Shown: one piece after another, positions 2,986 to 19,938 of the stretch
How the letters are laid out: every line of letters begins with the position of its first letter
Numbering within the stretch: the first letter of the stretch is position 1
DNA from: a virus
Length of the DNA stretch: 21,850 nucleotides
Virus record (IMG/VR): IMGVR_UViG_3300023439_000062
Span: 1-21,850 of that record
Strand: one strand, 5' to 3'
Position numbers and translations under genes: made by a program
Notes under the pieces: generated by a model
The model's input: the letters and a program-made list of their open reading frames with translations, nothing else
The model's database searches: none
What the model was told of the DNA's origin: nothing

Positions 2986-3339
2986 TTACCCGCAAAACTC
3001 TGAGTTATACGGGCATATATCATTATAGAAACCAGACCCGCATTGGCAAGTGGATGTTGGGATTTCTTTGACCCTGTACGTAACAGGGTTCCCTGCGAAC
3101 CGCTGTACCTGTTCAAATGACAGCTCTTTGCCGCGCAATTCAGCAGGGATGTTCAGAGGCACCTCTGTGATAGAGTTGGCGTGCACAGCTAACGATAACG
3201 GCAACACGCCTATCACATCCCTGTCTTTTACATCTTCGACTGTGGCATGGGCAACCACAGTATCTTCAGGGGACATTAAGTCCATCTTTAAAAGATATTC
3301 AATTAGCCCACTGTGTCTGGTTACGATCACTTTTTTCAT
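2986..3339 (-). CDS. csx16-like: Csx16-like protein, candidate ring nuclease (anti-type III CRISPR)
   Basis: The 117-aa protein opens with MKKVIVTRHSGLIEYL, then VVAHATVEDVKDRDVIGVLPLSLAVHANS (about residues 28-56), VPLNIPAELRGKELSFEQV and a final YRVKEI. This matches the order of conserved blocks in the CRISPR-associated Csx16 (VVA1548) family: V-x-RH-G-x-x-E, V-AH, V-IG-LP, LP-ELRGKELS. Csx16 proteins accompany type III systems and have been assigned as ring nucleases that destroy cyclic-oligoadenylate signals. A phage copy without cas genes nearby would plausibly blunt a host type III defence; that is inference. After the domain comes a tail with CQCGSG and further cysteines, resembling a zinc-binding SEC-C motif. 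The base composition looks less AT-rich than that of its neighbours, hinting at separate acquisition. A dyad-TATAAT element precedes it. Confidence 0.65.
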   Translation of the reverse strand: MKKVIVTRHSGLIEYLLKMDLMSPEDTVVAHATVEDVKDRDVIGVLPLSLAVHANSITEVPLNIPAELRGKELSFEQVQRFAGNPVTYRVKEIPTSTCQCGSGFYNDICPYNSEFCG

Positions 3340-4042: not shown

Positions 4043-4246
4043 TCATTCGTCATAAAAATGACTGGGGACTAGGTAATCGTCCCCCATGTCGGTTACGACT
4101 AACCATTCGCCGCCACCCCTGGCGACTTCTTCTTTTTTACACATATCCCTAAAATTGGGAATATGCGAAATAGGGCATTGCAAGTAATTTGCAAGACCCT
4201 CGTTGGTTAAACGAAGTTTCGAAATATTGATTGTGAAATCATTCAT
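4043..4246 (-). CDS. Small protein of unknown function (67 aa)
   Basis: It starts MNDFTINISKLRLTNEGLANYL, followed by CPISHIPNFRDMCKKEEVARGG and an acidic end (VTDMGDDYLVPSHFYDE). I chose the ATG at 4246, which follows GAGGGTGTATC, over an upstream ATG at 4291 that lies inside the stem of the ncRNA terminator. It is the first gene after the non-coding RNA, so terminator read-through is one way it could be expressed. No domain recognised. Confidence 0.6.
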   Translation of the reverse strand: MNDFTINISKLRLTNEGLANYLQCPISHIPNFRDMCKKEEVARGGGEWLVVTDMGDDYLVPSHFYDE

Positions 4247-4269
4247 GATACACCCTCGTAATAAAGAAT

Positions 4270-4309
4270 TAAAAGAACAAAAATAAATCACTCTAAATCA
4301 AAGTGATTT
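4270..4309 (-). terminator. Rho-independent terminator of the non-coding RNA
   Basis: On the minus strand AAATCACT pairs with AGTGATTT (4302-4309 with 4285-4292), an 8-bp stem with a 9-nt loop, followed by ATTTTTGTTCTTTT. The stem is AT-rich, so it may be leaky and let some transcription reach the leftward genes. Confidence 0.65.
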
Positions 4310-4846
4310 AGTCTTGTCCCTGTAGGCGCATGAAGGTTTGCTAGACCTTACCACACGCCTACAGAAGGCACTATTACGCGGTCATTTTGCTTTCGCCGCT
4401 ATAATATAACCCATGATTGAACTAGGTCTGTATTGCTATTTTTTCACAATAAAGCCTAATCCATTGTTATAAAATCCTTTTATACACGGATTAACCCTGT
4501 TACGGGCTTTCGTACCTATTTCATGGTGCTAGTACTACAGAACTCGCAAGACCCCGCCCAAAAGTCAAAAATACGCTAAATCCTTGTATTTTATGAACTT
4601 TTCGGCCTGCACTCCACATATGAACGAGCTTTTTTTCTAGCATTGCATAAACCCACAGACCTACTTGTTAAGTGAGTAATGCGCTAGGATAGAGACTCTA
4701 CTCTACCTGTAGATTGCAACATCTAGCAAGCTATACCAAACTTCAGCATAACCAAGTCACGTTAACACCTTGTGACTCACGGACTACCCGTGTCTAGCTG
4801 CAATCACTCGCCCTAATGAAGGGGCGCGCTAATTCTAACACCATAT

Positions 4847-4858
4847 TGTTAAAGAGCG
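4847..4858 (-). promoter_or_regulatory. boxA: boxA antitermination element
   Basis: The minus strand reads CGCTCTTTAACA, a full match to the boxA consensus bound by NusB-NusE (S10) in rRNA leaders and lambdoid nut sites. It starts roughly 26 nt after the expected start of the nearest promoter and follows directly after a small hairpin (GTGT-TTCTG-ACAC), the boxB-boxA order of rRNA leaders. Confidence 0.7.
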
Positions 4859-4891
4859 TGTCAGAAACACTTGTTTTCCGACTTGGGTTCT

Positions 4892-4919
4892 ATTATACAG
4901 ATCCCAATCAATTTGTCAA
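4892..4919 (-). promoter_or_regulatory. Consensus sigma70 promoter (nearest to the ncRNA)
   Basis: Minus strand TTGACA (4914-4919), 16-nt spacer, TATAAT (4892-4897). Both hexamers are perfect. The expected start is near 4884. Confidence 0.85.
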
Positions 4920-4959: not shown

Positions 4960-4987
4960 ATTATACAGGATTAGATATGAATGTCAA
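4960..4987 (-). promoter_or_regulatory. Consensus sigma70 promoter
   Basis: Minus strand TTGACA (4982-4987), 16-nt spacer, TATAAT (4960-4965). Both hexamers are perfect. The spacer ends CTG before TATAAT exactly as in the next promoter 68 bp downstream, so the two may have arisen by duplication. Confidence 0.85.
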
Positions 4988-5087: not shown

Positions 5088-5116
5088 ATTTTACCAGAGT
5101 TTGCCAGACTTGTCAA
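5088..5116 (-). promoter_or_regulatory. Sigma70 promoter
   Basis: Minus strand TTGACA (5111-5116), 17-nt spacer, TAAAAT (5088-5093): a perfect -35 and a 5/6 -10. Confidence 0.72.
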
Positions 5117-5142: not shown

Positions 5143-5171
5143 ATGATAACAGAAAAAGTTAGGCATGTCAA
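5143..5171 (-). promoter_or_regulatory. Sigma70 promoter (furthest upstream of the array)
   Basis: Minus strand TTGACA (5166-5171), 17-nt spacer, TATCAT (5143-5148): a perfect -35 and a 5/6 -10. It starts the five-promoter array. Confidence 0.7.
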
Positions 5172-5438: not shown

Positions 5439-5705
5439 ATGCCAAGTTCAAAAAATTATAAACGAGATTATAACCAAGAATACAAAGTATCTCAGTCTTC
5501 AAAAGCTGAAATTAAAAAACGTAGTTCTAGAAATAAGGCTAGAAGAATGATGATGAAAAAAGGAAAAGTTAGATTAGGAGATTCAATGGATGTAGATCAT
5601 AAAAATATGAATCCTTTGAATAATTCAGTATCCAATCTTAGAGTAGTATCTAAATCTAAAAATAGATCATTTAAAAGAAATTCTAAAGCTGGAAAGAAGA
5701 GATAA
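5439..5705 (+). CDS. Small HNH endonuclease-like protein
   Basis: An 88-aa basic protein starting MPSSKNYKRDYNQEYK. Residues about 47-83 hold the HNH core DVDHKNMNPLNNSVSNLRVVSK: the DH pair supplies the catalytic histidine, and the SNLRVVSKSKNRS strand-helix is typical of short phage HNH proteins found next to terminase genes. The N-terminal half is a positively charged DNA-binding-like helix region. It is the first gene of the rightward block, one base before TerS (5707). Such proteins either assist terminase cleavage in cos-type packaging phages or act as free-standing homing nucleases; the position next to TerS favours the packaging role, without proof. Confidence 0.8.
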   Translation: MPSSKNYKRDYNQEYKVSQSSKAEIKKRSSRNKARRMMMKKGKVRLGDSMDVDHKNMNPLNNSVSNLRVVSKSKNRSFKRNSKAGKKR

Positions 5706-11433: not shown

Positions 11434-13746
11434 ATGAGTAATATTATAACAATACCTCACGAGTTTAAACCTCGACCTTATCAATTAGAATTATTTAAAG
11501 CAATGGATAGCGGATATAAAAGAGCTATTGTTGTATATCATCGTCGAGCAGGTAAAGATAAATCATTATTTAACCTACTTATTAAAAAAGCTTTTGAACG
11601 AAAAGGTGTATATTATTATCTTTTTCCTGAATTTGCACAAGGCCGAAGAGTAATCTGGGATGGCGTAGATGGGTCAGGATTTAAATTTTTAGATCATATT
11701 CCAGAACAACTAATTCAACGTAAAAACTCTACTGACATGAAACTTGAATTAGTCAATGGATCTGTCATTCAAGTTATTGGTACAGATAAGTTTGATAAGG
11801 TTCGAGGATCTAATCCAGTAGGATGTGTATTTTCAGAATTTGCATTTCAAAACCCTAAAGCATGGCATATTGTAAGACCAATTCTTGCTGAAAATGGTGG
11901 ATGGGCTTGTTTTAATAGTACTCCTAATGGTAAAAATCATTTCTATAAGATGTATAATATGGCATTGAATAACCAGAATTGGTTTACTCAATTTCTTACA
12001 GTAGATGATACTAAAGATTGGGATGGAAATCCCATCATTACACAAGAGGCTATCCAAGAAGAAATTGATGCCGGAATGTCTAAAGAAATGGTTCAGCAGG
12101 AATTTTATTGTTTTCTTCCATTTGTATCTGATGTTATTACAAATAATGGAATTAAAGATATATCAGAAATAACTACATCTGACATGGTATTAACTCATGG
12201 TAATTCATATAGAAGAGTGAGAGGAGTATCTAAAAGATACTATTCAGGAGAAATTCTTAAAATAAAAGTAATAGGTAATAATAAACCAATTTATTGCACC
12301 CCGAATCATCCTTTTAGAGTATGTAACGATGGTGTTAATAATAAATGGATTCCAGCTGAAAATCTAAGTTTAAGTGATAGGCTAACAATACCTAGACCTC
12401 TTGTTGATAATTTTAAAGTTATTTCAGAAAATTTAGCATTCATTATATCTTGGTATATAACTGAAGGATCTTGTGGTAAAAATACTGTTCAATTTACAAT
12501 CAATCTGTCTTCTGAAAAAGATATTAGTAAAAAACTAAAAAAAGCGATTAAAGAAGAGTTTGGATTAAAATGTAAATTTTATGATAATATTAAAAATAAT
12601 ACTAGAACAATAACTGTATGTTCAAGACATTTACGTGAATTCTTAATACTTAATTGTGGAGCAGGCTCTATTAATAAGAAAATTCCTCCAATAATAAAGG
12701 GTTATGAACAATTAGTATTTGATAATTTAATATTAGGTGATGGACATATTCAAAATAATTCTGAATTTATATATACGACTATTTCAAAAACTTTAGCATA
12801 TCAAGTGCAATTATTAGGAAATTCGCTAGGGTATAAAATGCGAATTAGGGAAATTAAAAATAATTCTAATGGAAATATTTTAGGTAGGAATGTTTTATTA
12901 AACACTGTATATGATATAAGAGGAAATAAATCATCTAAATCTCGATTTATAAATAAACATAAATATAATTATTCTACTAAAATACTTTCAATAGAAAAAG
13001 AACATTACGAAGGTAATGTATATAATTTAGATGTAGCAGAAGAACATAGTTATTGTGTAAATTCTATAGTAGTACATAATTGTTCATGGATTGCAAATTC
13101 ACAAGGATTTTATTTTCTTTCTCTAATTGAAGAAGCAGAACAAGAAAAGAGAATAACTAATTTAGATATAGATCCTTCGGTACCAGTAAGTACCTGGTGG
13201 GATATCGGTGTAGGCGATAATACCTGTATTTGGTTTACTCAAATTGTAGATAATAAAATTCATGTAATTGATTTTTTACAAGATAAAGGTAAAGGACTAG
13301 ACCATTATGCTAAATTATTACAGCGTAAAAAATACATCTATGCTAGTCATAATTTTCCTCATGATATAATGAATATTGAATTTGGAACAGGTAGAACTAG
13401 ATTTGAAGTTGCTGAAAAGTTATTTGTAGGAACAAAAGTAAATTGTATTCCTAAACTTCCCTTAGAGGAAGGTATTAATGCAGTACGTATGGTATTACCT
13501 TTGTGTTATATAGATCAAAAAAGATGTGCAATAGGAATAGATGCACTTAAAAATTATCATAGACAATTCGATGAAAAAAATCAAGAATACAAAGACAAGC
13601 CTGTACATGATTGGTCATCTGATCCAACTGATGCTTTTAGATACATGAGTATAGGAATTACATTACCAAAGAAAAGATCATTTAGATCTGAATATATGAG
13701 AAACTCAAATAAAGTAGTTTCAATTAAGGATTGGAAAAGCGCATAA
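11434..13746 (+). CDS. terL: Terminase large subunit, interrupted by an intein
   Basis: The packaging motor and nuclease. The 770-aa precursor shows a Walker A-like HRRAGKDKS (residues 36-44), Walker B VGCVFSE (129-135), and an RNase H-like nuclease with Asp590 in WWDIG and the closing DWSSDPTDAFRYM (about 727-739), whose aspartates are likely metal ligands. Residues 226-549 are an in-frame intein; without them the protein is 446 aa, normal for a compact T7-like or Terminase_6-type TerL. The two exteins join as QQEFY-CSWIANS, between ATPase and nuclease. It starts 2 nt after the holin stop, with a poor ribosome binding site, and shares TAATG with the portal gene. Packaging should depend on protein splicing. 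Confidence 0.92.
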   Translation: MSNIITIPHEFKPRPYQLELFKAMDSGYKRAIVVYHRRAGKDKSLFNLLIKKAFERKGVYYYLFPEFAQGRRVIWDGVDGSGFKFLDHIPEQLIQRKNSTDMKLELVNGSVIQVIGTDKFDKVRGSNPVGCVFSEFAFQNPKAWHIVRPILAENGGWACFNSTPNGKNHFYKMYNMALNNQNWFTQFLTVDDTKDWDGNPIITQEAIQEEIDAGMSKEMVQQEFYCFLPFVSDVITNNGIKDISEITTSDMVLTHGNSYRRVRGVSKRYYSGEILKIKVIGNNKPIYCTPNHPFRVCNDGVNNKWIPAENLSLSDRLTIPRPLVDNFKVISENLAFIISWYITEGSCGKNTVQFTINLSSEKDISKKLKKAIKEEFGLKCKFYDNIKNNTRTITVCSRHLREFLILNCGAGSINKKIPPIIKGYEQLVFDNLILGDGHIQNNSEFIYTTISKTLAYQVQLLGNSLGYKMRIREIKNNSNGNILGRNVLLNTVYDIRGNKSSKSRFINKHKYNYSTKILSIEKEHYEGNVYNLDVAEEHSYCVNSIVVHNCSWIANSQGFYFLSLIEEAEQEKRITNLDIDPSVPVSTWWDIGVGDNTCIWFTQIVDNKIHVIDFLQDKGKGLDHYAKLLQRKKYIYASHNFPHDIMNIEFGTGRTRFEVAEKLFVGTKVNCIPKLPLEEGINAVRMVLPLCYIDQKRCAIGIDALKNYHRQFDEKNQEYKDKPVHDWSSDPTDAFRYMSIGITLPKKRSFRSEYMRNSNKVVSIKDWKSA
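12109..13080 (+). mobile_element. Intein with LAGLIDADG homing endonuclease in TerL
   Basis: 324 codons begin at Cys (codon 226, CFLPFVSDVITNNGIK) and end in VVHN just before Cys550. Visible splicing residues are the N-terminal nucleophile Cys1, block B TPNH (Thr64, His67), the penultimate His and terminal Asn (H323, N324) and the +1 Cys of the extein, so a standard class 1 mechanism is expected. Block F is YEGNVYNLDVAEEHSYCVN. Between the splicing halves are two dodecapeptides, LAFIISWYITEG (about 109-120) and VFDNLILGDG (about 203-212), with Glu119 and Asp211 as the likely catalytic acids of a DOD endonuclease, so it is probably a mobile, active intein. Base composition is even more AT-rich than the exteins. 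Confidence 0.93.
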
Positions 13747-18292: not shown

Positions 18293-19087
18293 AACGAAGA
18301 AGAGATGCGTTCTTACAATGACAAAATCACTATTGACTTAATCAGTCATGGTGTTCGTCAGAAAGGTAAGCTCGCAGAACAAAAAACTGTAATTAACTTT
18401 AGAGAAAATGCACGAGATCGATTAGCATATTGGTTATCTAATCGTATGGATCAATTGGCATTTTTAACTTTATCTGGAGTTGATTATTCACGAAACAATG
18501 ATGGTTCATTAAGGACTTCTACAGCATTTAGCAATTTGGCTTTTGCTGCTAGTGTAACTCCTCCTTCTGCTAAACGCCATCTTCGTGTAACAAATACAAC
18601 TGGTGATTCTACTGGTTATACCGGTCTAGCTACTGGCAATACCGCAGCTATGGTAAGTACAGATGTTCTTACTTATAAAGCTATTGTAGATATTGCTACA
18701 TATGCAAAGAATCATTATATTAAACCATTGAATGAAGGTGGTAAAGAATATTATATTGCTTTTGTTCGTCCTGAAGCATTAGCTCAACTGAAGAAGGATG
18801 CAGACTATCAAAGAGCTATTACTACTGCCGAACAACGCTCATCTAAAAACCCTTGGTTTACAGGTGGTGTTGTAACAGTAGACGGTATTGTATTCCACGA
18901 ACATCGTTTGGTTTATAATACTACTGGTGCTACTTCAGGCACCGATAAATGGGGTGCTGCTGCAAATGTGGACGGCTCTCGCATGTTGTTGTGCGGCGCT
19001 CAAGCATTGGGCATGGCTGACTTAGGTGCCCCAGAGTGGTCAGAAAAATGGTTTAACTATGATTCAAGTCCAGGCATTAATGTCGAT
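18293..19087 (+). CDS. Major capsid protein (N4-gp56 family), exon 2
   Basis: 265 codons forming most of the HK97-fold shell protein: NEEEMRSYNDKITIDLISHG, VRQKGKLAEQKTVINFRENA, RDRLAYWLSNRMDQLAFLTLS, later YYIAFVRPEALAQLKKDADY, TGGVVTVDGIVFHEHRLVYN and LCGAQALGMADLGAPEWSEK. All follow the order of N4-gp56 family proteins. It begins directly after the intron's terminal G; there is no start codon of its own, although a TTG just upstream could mimic one. The end is placed after GAT (NYDSSPGINVD), since the following CRLAA and stop do not fit the family and lie in intron 2. Confidence 0.88.
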
Positions 19088-19938
19088 AAAATTTGTCGCC
19101 TAGCAGCGTAATCTGCTAGTGAAAATCTCTCTAATTGCTGGAAACTCTTGATAGGTACTTTAACTACAAACATTACGAAAGTAGATGTTGAAAGTTTAAA
19201 AATAAAGTAATAGAGACAATCAGCAGCTAAGACTCTAAGTAGAAACTTATTAGCAATTTTAAGTGTCTATATGAGTAAAGTTCAACGACTAGAGCATGGC
19301 TCGTACACTTTTAGCTTAAAGTGGAAATGGGAGATATCGTATGAAAGAGTGTAAATATTGTAAACGCAAGGATGATGGCGTAATTCCTTTTGTCCAAGAT
19401 GAAAGGAAATGTGTTGAGTGTAGGAATAGACTCAAAAGAGAAAAATATAAGAATGATTTAGAATATAGGAAACGGGTTATAGAATATAATTCGAACTATA
19501 GAAATCAAACAGAAAATAAAATTAAATTTAAAAAGTACTATAAAGAATATTCAACTAATTCTAAAAATAAAGATAGAATTAAAAAGATTAAGTTAAAATA
19601 TTCTAAAAATAATCCTCATAAGATTAATGCGCATACTGCATTGCGCAGAGTTAAAAAATTGCAAAGAACTGTTTTTAATAATGATATTACAAATCATAAT
19701 ATAAAAGAAACATATAAATTATGTGCAATATTAAATAAACATTCTAAACAAACTTTTAACGTAGATCATATAATTCCTTTACAAGGAAGGTGTGTATCTG
19801 GATTACATGTTACTCTTAATTTACAAGTTATTCCCTCACAAATAAATTTTTACAAAAATAATTCTTTCAACGATAAAGATATAGTCTAAACTACATGGAG
19901 ACATGTAGAGATACAAGGAATGTATCGTAATATAATTG
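19088..19938 (+). mobile_element. Group I intron 2 in the capsid gene
   Basis: 851 nt with the same core order as intron 1: AATTGCTGGAAAC (19133-19145), AATCAGCAGCTAAG (19218-19231), GTTCAACGACTAGA (19280-19293) and AAGATATAGTCT (19876-19887), with P7 as GACTA (19287-19291) and TAGTC (19882-19886). P1 may be exon CGAT (19084-19087) with GTCG (19095-19098), again with U-G at the splice site, followed by a 7-bp P2-like stem (19100-19106 with 19113-19119). The 3' end TAATTG matches intron 1. This gives VD-KMFGFLKP. An alternative boundary (DKI-FGF, ending the intron at ATG, 19944) would also fit the family, so the exact nucleotides are less certain than for intron 1. Confidence 0.85.
19341..19889 (+). 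CDS. HNH homing endonuclease of capsid intron 2
   Basis: 182 aa, the same length as the intron 1 enzyme but clearly diverged. A zinc-ribbon-like start (CKYC at 4-7, CVEC about 24-27), a basic helical middle (KNKDRIKKIKLKYSKNNPHK), and an HNH domain FNVDHIIPLQGRCVSGLHVTLNLQVI (about 141-166) ending with INFYKNNS. DH is the catalytic pair. The DIV-stop end again overlaps the ribozyme S element. GGGAG precedes the ATG. It is expected to cut at the capsid exon 2/exon 3 junction of intron-less relatives. Confidence 0.9.
   Translation: MKECKYCKRKDDGVIPFVQDERKCVECRNRLKREKYKNDLEYRKRVIEYNSNYRNQTENKIKFKKYYKEYSTNSKNKDRIKKIKLKYSKNNPHKINAHTALRRVKKLQRTVFNNDITNHNIKETYKLCAILNKHSKQTFNVDHIIPLQGRCVSGLHVTLNLQVIPSQINFYKNNSFNDKDIV

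Follow-up and report, generated by a model that had tools for sequence, protein, structure and literature searches.

Does a phage open a long untranslated RNA of its own with the boxA signal found in rRNA operon leaders, and if so, what would it gain? The question is raised by a 21,850-nucleotide stretch of viral DNA (IMG/VR record IMGVR_UViG_3300023439_000062; the whole stretch is referred to here as the window), in which a boxA-like 12-mer lies on the minus strand at the start of a region with no evident gene. BoxA RNA binds NusB-S10 and, together with SuhB, NusA and NusG, modifies RNA polymerase. To our knowledge boxA is known from few places outside rRNA, and CRISPR array leaders are reportedly among them. 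A boxA also precedes suhB and some other genes; non-coding RNAs, as the published boxA target survey itself states, were outside its scope (PMC5725501).

A boxA heads a long non-coding RNA in the window

The minus strand of the window carries CGCTCTTTAACA at 4858–4847, confirming the exact boxA consensus match of the original prediction. No other site in the 21.85 kb matches it with two or fewer mismatches (1.5 expected by chance), and simple arithmetic gives ∼0.003 chance occurrences of the exact 12-mer in the window. It includes an exact match to GYTCTTTAANA, the published gamma-proteobacterial boxA consensus (PMC5725501). The boxA lies 33 nt 3′ of a sigma-70 promoter scoring 12/12, and no open reading frame (ORF) of at least 60 aa occurs for about 540–550 nt downstream. 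Four sigma-70-like promoters stand in tandem upstream of it on the same strand, two of which score 12/12 (Table 1).

The interval 4311–4885 is free of ORFs of at least 60 aa on both strands, the longest sense ORF being 40 aa, and the RNA strand folds better than its dinucleotide shuffles (z −7.06 and −6.8). Rfam returned no family for the RNA at the gathering threshold or up to an E-value of 10, a BLAST search of the region against phages gave no match, and a tRNA search of the window found none. An intrinsic terminator is present where one had been placed, at 4285–4309. Rightward, and divergent from the RNA, are the HNH, TerS, TerL, portal and capsid genes. The proposal that a long untranslated RNA begins with a boxA of the rRNA kind is supported; judged from sequence, the boxA is genuine, occupies a recurrent position (see below) and heads a new phage non-coding RNA. 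In the predicted minimum-energy fold most of the boxA is paired with 4840–4828, and no comparable pairing was seen in the leader of a syntenic relative, L003, of which a short stretch was folded.

Table 1. Features at and around the boxA of the window.
Feature	Position	Strand	Details
First leftward gene past the terminator, 67 aa	4043..4246	−	No Pfam match
Intrinsic terminator, TAAATCACTTTGATTTAGAGTGATTTA with TTTTTG tail	4278..4310	−	Stem of up to 15 pairs, T-run
Long structured non-coding RNA	4278..4886	−	From inferred start to terminator; no ORF ≥60 aa; fold z about −7
Conserved hairpin AAGGU-CUAGCAA-ACCUU, near RNA 3′ end	4333..4349	−	Loop in 7/12 syntenic RNAs; compensating stem changes
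boxA, CGCTCTTTAACA	4847..4858	−	Exact and consensus match; same place in L003, L070, L073, G006
Alternative hairpin GTGT-TTCTG-ACAC	4858..4870	−	−1.9 kcal/mol; one-base overlap with the 12-mer
Hairpin GUCGGAAA-ACAAGUG-UUUCUGAC, boxB-like by position	4860..4882	−	Arms 4882–4875 and 4867–4860; 8 bp, 7-nt loop; −6.6 kcal/mol; in full MFE fold
Promoter P4, TTGACA-16-TATAAT	4892..4919	−	12/12; predicted start ∼4884–4886, inferred from spacing
Promoter P3, TTGACA-16-TATAAT	4960..4987	−	12/12; sequence match
Promoter P2, TTGACA-17-TAAAAT	5088..5116	−	11/12, TG before second hexamer; sequence match
Promoter P1, TTGACA-17-TATCAT	5143..5171	−	11/12, TG before second hexamer; sequence match
HNH protein, divergent neighbour	5439..5705	+	Anchor for finding syntenic loci

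A hairpin commonly precedes phage boxAs

A GTGT/ACAC hairpin had been proposed directly before the boxA. It exists, but it is weak and shares a base with the 12-mer, and the fold favours the longer GUCGGAAA/UUUCUGAC hairpin, which stops one base 5′ of the boxA. The proposed order of hairpin and then boxA holds more widely. In a set of 28 distinct phage leaders (described below), nine have a perfect stem of at least 5 bp ending no more than 5 nt from the boxA, where 200 rounds of shuffling gave 1.7 on average and never more than 5; on these counts a boxB-like hairpin before a phage boxA is common but optional. Within the syntenic loci such a hairpin is seen in the window, in L003 and before the first boxA of L073, and none is convincing in L070 or G006. 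An exact search of IMG/VR for the AAGGTCTAGCAANCCTT hairpin gave 10 matches, of which L003 alone is in context and the others look like chance.

The boxA recurs in syntenic loci

Since the RNA has no BLAST relatives, we sought its counterparts by gene order. TerL and portal searches and the upstream DNA yielded twelve syntenic loci, including the window and MW202615, with an HNH gene and a divergent non-coding stretch; a search with the HNH protein for further loci returned mostly unrelated phages without the RNA. L003, obtained from the TerL search, has in the same place tandem promoters, a CACG-GAAA-CGTG hairpin, GCTCTTTAACA, and then ∼610 nt without a gene. A perfect GCTCTTTAACA is present in five of the twelve loci (the window, L003, L070, L073 and G006), and in the latter four it stands between the tandem promoters and the non-coding stretch, its position kept while the RNA sequences have diverged past BLAST. 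L073 has a second consensus match, GTTCTTTAAAA. The consensus is missing from L085, L088, L107, L078, G001, G003 and MW202615, the last having GATCTTTAACA only; L085 and L088 end at a contig edge, whereas L107, L078, G001 and G003 do not, and several of these boxA-less loci have weaker sigma-70 promoters. The conservation of the 12-mer that had been proposed as a check is partial: the position is the same in four relatives, but its absence from seven of the twelve comes near the pattern that the original prediction had itself named as evidence against it. Across these sequences the boxA is recurrent in its syntenic family and not universal.

GYTCTTTAANA has eight matches on both strands of ∼526 kb of syntenic loci, and six of them fall inside the 6 kb (1.2%) that is RNA (Poisson P about 2e-13, or 6e-11 without the window). 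In an unbiased word count of the twelve RNAs, TCTTTAAC/CTTTAACA ranked first among 8-mers by the number of RNAs sharing it, 6/12, with shuffled maxima averaging 3.8 and reaching 5 at most. The boxA carriers do not form one clade on a portal tree, so that boxA has probably been gained or lost more than once.

The RNAs of these loci vary in other respects. That of L003 folds no better than its shuffles (z −0.5). There is a clear terminator at the RNA end in the window, L070 and L073, and no clear T-run terminator was found in L003, L107, L078, G006 or G003. Rfam gave no GOLLD or ROOL match among the relatives' RNAs. We note that Acidovorax phage AP1 (L065) combines, at 5566–4715 on the minus strand, a promoter-like site, GGTCTTTAACA, with ∼690 nt in which no gene is annotated and a strong terminator, and is a possible, more distant counterpart of the window locus; in the gaps of phiR18 no boxA, promoter or loop motif was found.

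A conserved hairpin in a candidate new RNA family

Divergence among the syntenic RNAs prevents their alignment except for one hairpin, with a CUAGCAA or UUAGCAA loop, that is present in seven of the twelve: the window, L003, L073, L088, L107, L158 (G003) and L064 (MW202615). All seven occurrences in the ∼526 kb are inside the syntenic RNA, with none elsewhere. All five stem pairs change on both sides across loci; the motif was spotted by eye and the search required at least four pairs, which inflates the percentage of pairing and does not affect the absence elsewhere. Where the hairpin lies along the RNA varies: L107 and L088 have it close to the 5′ end, the window and L003 close to the 3′ end. 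It occurs both with and without boxA, being the more widespread of the two. The RNAs with this loop would make up one new family, the window RNA being new to Rfam. With a stem of 5 bp and a loop of 7 nt, the hairpin is shaped like an anticodon arm.

Promoter-boxA leaders are widespread in phages

IMG/VR was scanned with the pattern TTGACA-N15-18-TATAAT-N15-45-GCTCTTTAACA, which returned 58 promoter-boxA loci (L005–L062) with 28 distinct leaders. Control scans with a reversed boxA or a dinucleotide-matched rearranged boxA both returned zero, and rRNA contamination was discounted, with no rRNA found by Rfam in the representatives scanned. A tRNA starts within 100 nt of the boxA in 18 of the 58 loci, mostly 13–18 nt past it, whereas positions drawn at random from these loci give 9%; within 400 nt the figures are 28 of 58 and 20%. 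The boxA of L007 heads a tRNA unit that runs on into GOLLD. In L006, L014, L026, L028 and L062 it is followed by roughly 400–700 nt without an evident gene, some of it strongly structured (z −7.6 in L014 and −4.3 in L026 for the stretch headed by boxA). A few leaders head mRNAs: in L013 (identical to Proteus phage Stubb) and L022, both Proteus phages with A1/A2 genes, the leader is 5′ of a protein gene adjoining A2, and phage boxA is therefore not confined to non-coding RNAs.

Some of these stretches have further symmetries. In L006, L026 and L062 a palindromic hairpin close to the beginning of the untranslated stretch is repeated close to its end (AACTTCATACTGTATGAAGTT and AACTTCATACAGTATGAAGTT in L062). 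In L044 a near reverse complement of the boxA and its flank lies ∼330 nt downstream (CGCCATATCAAGTGG...TGTTAAAGAGTG), so that pairing between leader and trailer, of the kind seen in pre-rRNA, is possible.

These data leave next to no room for a chance match. The window alone offers one 12-mer in one place, for which coincidence might have served, but recurrence in syntenic loci and the permuted-boxA controls refute it. The placing of a boxA by a phage before its own RNA, which the original prediction held to be notable, is less isolated than was supposed, with 28 distinct phage leaders. A limited literature search did not find the wider promoter-boxA arrangement described, and the phage boxA that it did find was tied to lambda-type nut sites.

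We put it at about an even chance that phages generally borrow the elongation complex of host rRNA to transcribe stable RNA operons of their own, namely tRNA arrays, GOLLD and undescribed large non-coding RNAs; the layout in such a case would be a promoter, often a hairpin, and then boxA directly before the stable RNA. If phages do set boxA before tRNA arrays and large non-coding RNAs, the host Nus factors would count among the host factors of many phages, and further large phage RNAs could be discovered by searching for a simple DNA pattern. Phage boxA RNAs would also offer a clean test, on non-ribosomal RNAs, of whether boxA serves Rho resistance or folding.

What the boxA may do

The explanation that we favour, and consider probable, is that the window specifies a strongly transcribed, untranslated and structured RNA of ∼600 nt, opened by a host-type boxA that modifies the polymerase via Nus factors. 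The phage would begin this RNA with boxA after strong promoters; as it emerges, the boxA would be bound by host NusB-S10 (with SuhB, NusA and NusG), turning the polymerase into an rRNA-type elongation complex that would keep Rho off the untranslated RNA, aid its co-transcriptional folding, or both, and the RNA would mostly end at its own intrinsic terminator. Both benefits are plausible for an untranslated RNA of ∼600 nt. The window would then exemplify a broader practice among phages of placing boxA after strong host-type promoters and before tRNA arrays, GOLLD and unnamed non-coding RNAs. Several observations sit less easily with this explanation: seven of the twelve syntenic loci are without a consensus boxA, the L003 RNA shows no more structure than its shuffles, the abundant ICP1 RNA (see below) lacks a boxA, and the predicted fold sequesters most of the boxA in the window.

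The sequence evidence bears on both benefits. In the absence of lambda N, host Nus factors are described as blocking termination by Rho; rRNA is described as intrinsically Rho-resistant, and what Nus factors chiefly do on it as folding (PMC5725501). A folding-aid role of Nus/SuhB has been argued for 16S rRNA. The argument from Rho is weakened by the window RNA itself, in which C exceeds G in just 4% of 78-nt windows, a poor Rho-loading sequence. A version of our explanation in which boxA recruits Nus/SuhB chiefly as a co-transcriptional folding aid, without Rho, is a serious possibility that we nonetheless rate at somewhat under even: it fits the highly structured window RNA and its scarcity of C>G stretches, but the RNAs of L107, G003 and MW202615 share the conserved hairpin and do without boxA. 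C>G windows are richer in the RNAs of L070, L073 and G006 (34–57%), so Rho escape may matter more in these, a weak hint from few loci.

Two readings depart further from ours. The ∼600 nt could be a 5′ leader in which boxA, perhaps with a phage protein, drives read-through of the terminator into the leftward genes, as at lambda PL-nutL. All annotated-size, family-matching genes from 4291 down to 538 do point left, and transcripts may continue in L003, L107, L078, G006 and G003; yet the terminators are clear in the window, L070 and L073, and the conserved hairpin inside the RNA speaks for a role of the RNA itself. In the window no canonical boxA-spacer-boxB follows, and no antiterminator family was found among the proteins scanned. 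The described action of host Nus factors by themselves is on termination that depends on Rho (PMC5725501), which also goes against the original suggestion that the boxA lets polymerase pass the terminator. We regard the leader reading as unlikely. Far less likely still is a decoy, an abundant boxA RNA that titrates NusB/S10 off the host rRNA operons without acting in cis. Strong multiple promoters would yield many copies of such an RNA, and the presence of boxA is patchy, but in unrelated phages boxA comes right at the beginning of transcription units and ahead of tRNA arrays, which is the layout of a cis signal.

Comparison with known boxA systems and large RNAs

A close parallel is the rRNA operon leader with its NusB-NusE/S10-SuhB system: the window shares the exact consensus, the strong tandem sigma-70 promoters and the placement where a long, structured and untranslated RNA begins, and a hairpin stands before boxA in the window, L003 and several unrelated phages. 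The window RNA differs in that it belongs to a phage, is not rRNA and ends after ∼600 nt, and its boxA is not universal in its family. With the boxA-boxB nut sites of lambda, which act with N, the window has in common a phage transcript and a boxA near a leftward promoter. It differs in the long untranslated RNA after boxA and in the downstream boxB: no short 5-bp/5-nt boxB hairpin follows the boxA, which is itself in the next predicted stem. No N-like antiterminator was found among the window proteins scanned, in a record that is probably a fragment. Like the boxAs of suhB and CRISPR leaders, that of the window is outside rRNA, but it does not lead a Nus-factor gene, and a CRISPR leader is ruled out since no direct repeats were found in 4240–4900.

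GOLLD and ROOL are likewise large, phage-borne, untranslated and structured, and often adjoin tRNA arrays; the window has no tRNAs and its RNA no covariance-model match to either. Lytic phage ICP1 resembles the window in having an ORF-less gap (∼1 kb) and a long RNA, an abundant non-coding RNA of ∼800 nt seen by RNA-seq (PMC7567579). No boxA was found in the ICP1 gap; not every RNA of this kind, therefore, requires one. The gap (L246, ∼80800, minus strand) holds TCTAGCAATCCT, a 12-mer also present in the L003 RNA, which may be chance.

Other features of the window

A 117-aa protein encoded at 2986–3339 on the minus strand matches Pfam Cas_VVA1548 (E 9e-17), which we take to be the type III CRISPR ring nuclease family Csx16, and is a possible phage counter-defence gene. 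On the plus strand, a group I intron (Rfam RF00028) occupies 19078–19405, beginning at the 3′ terminus of the frame for the major head protein, and overlaps an open frame at 19341–19889. The TerL frame (11434–13746, plus strand) is 770 aa long, and its terminase match begins with residues 6–226. Because the TerL frames of L003 and MW202615 are shorter, at about 445 aa, that of the window possibly carries an insertion, either an intein or a fusion.
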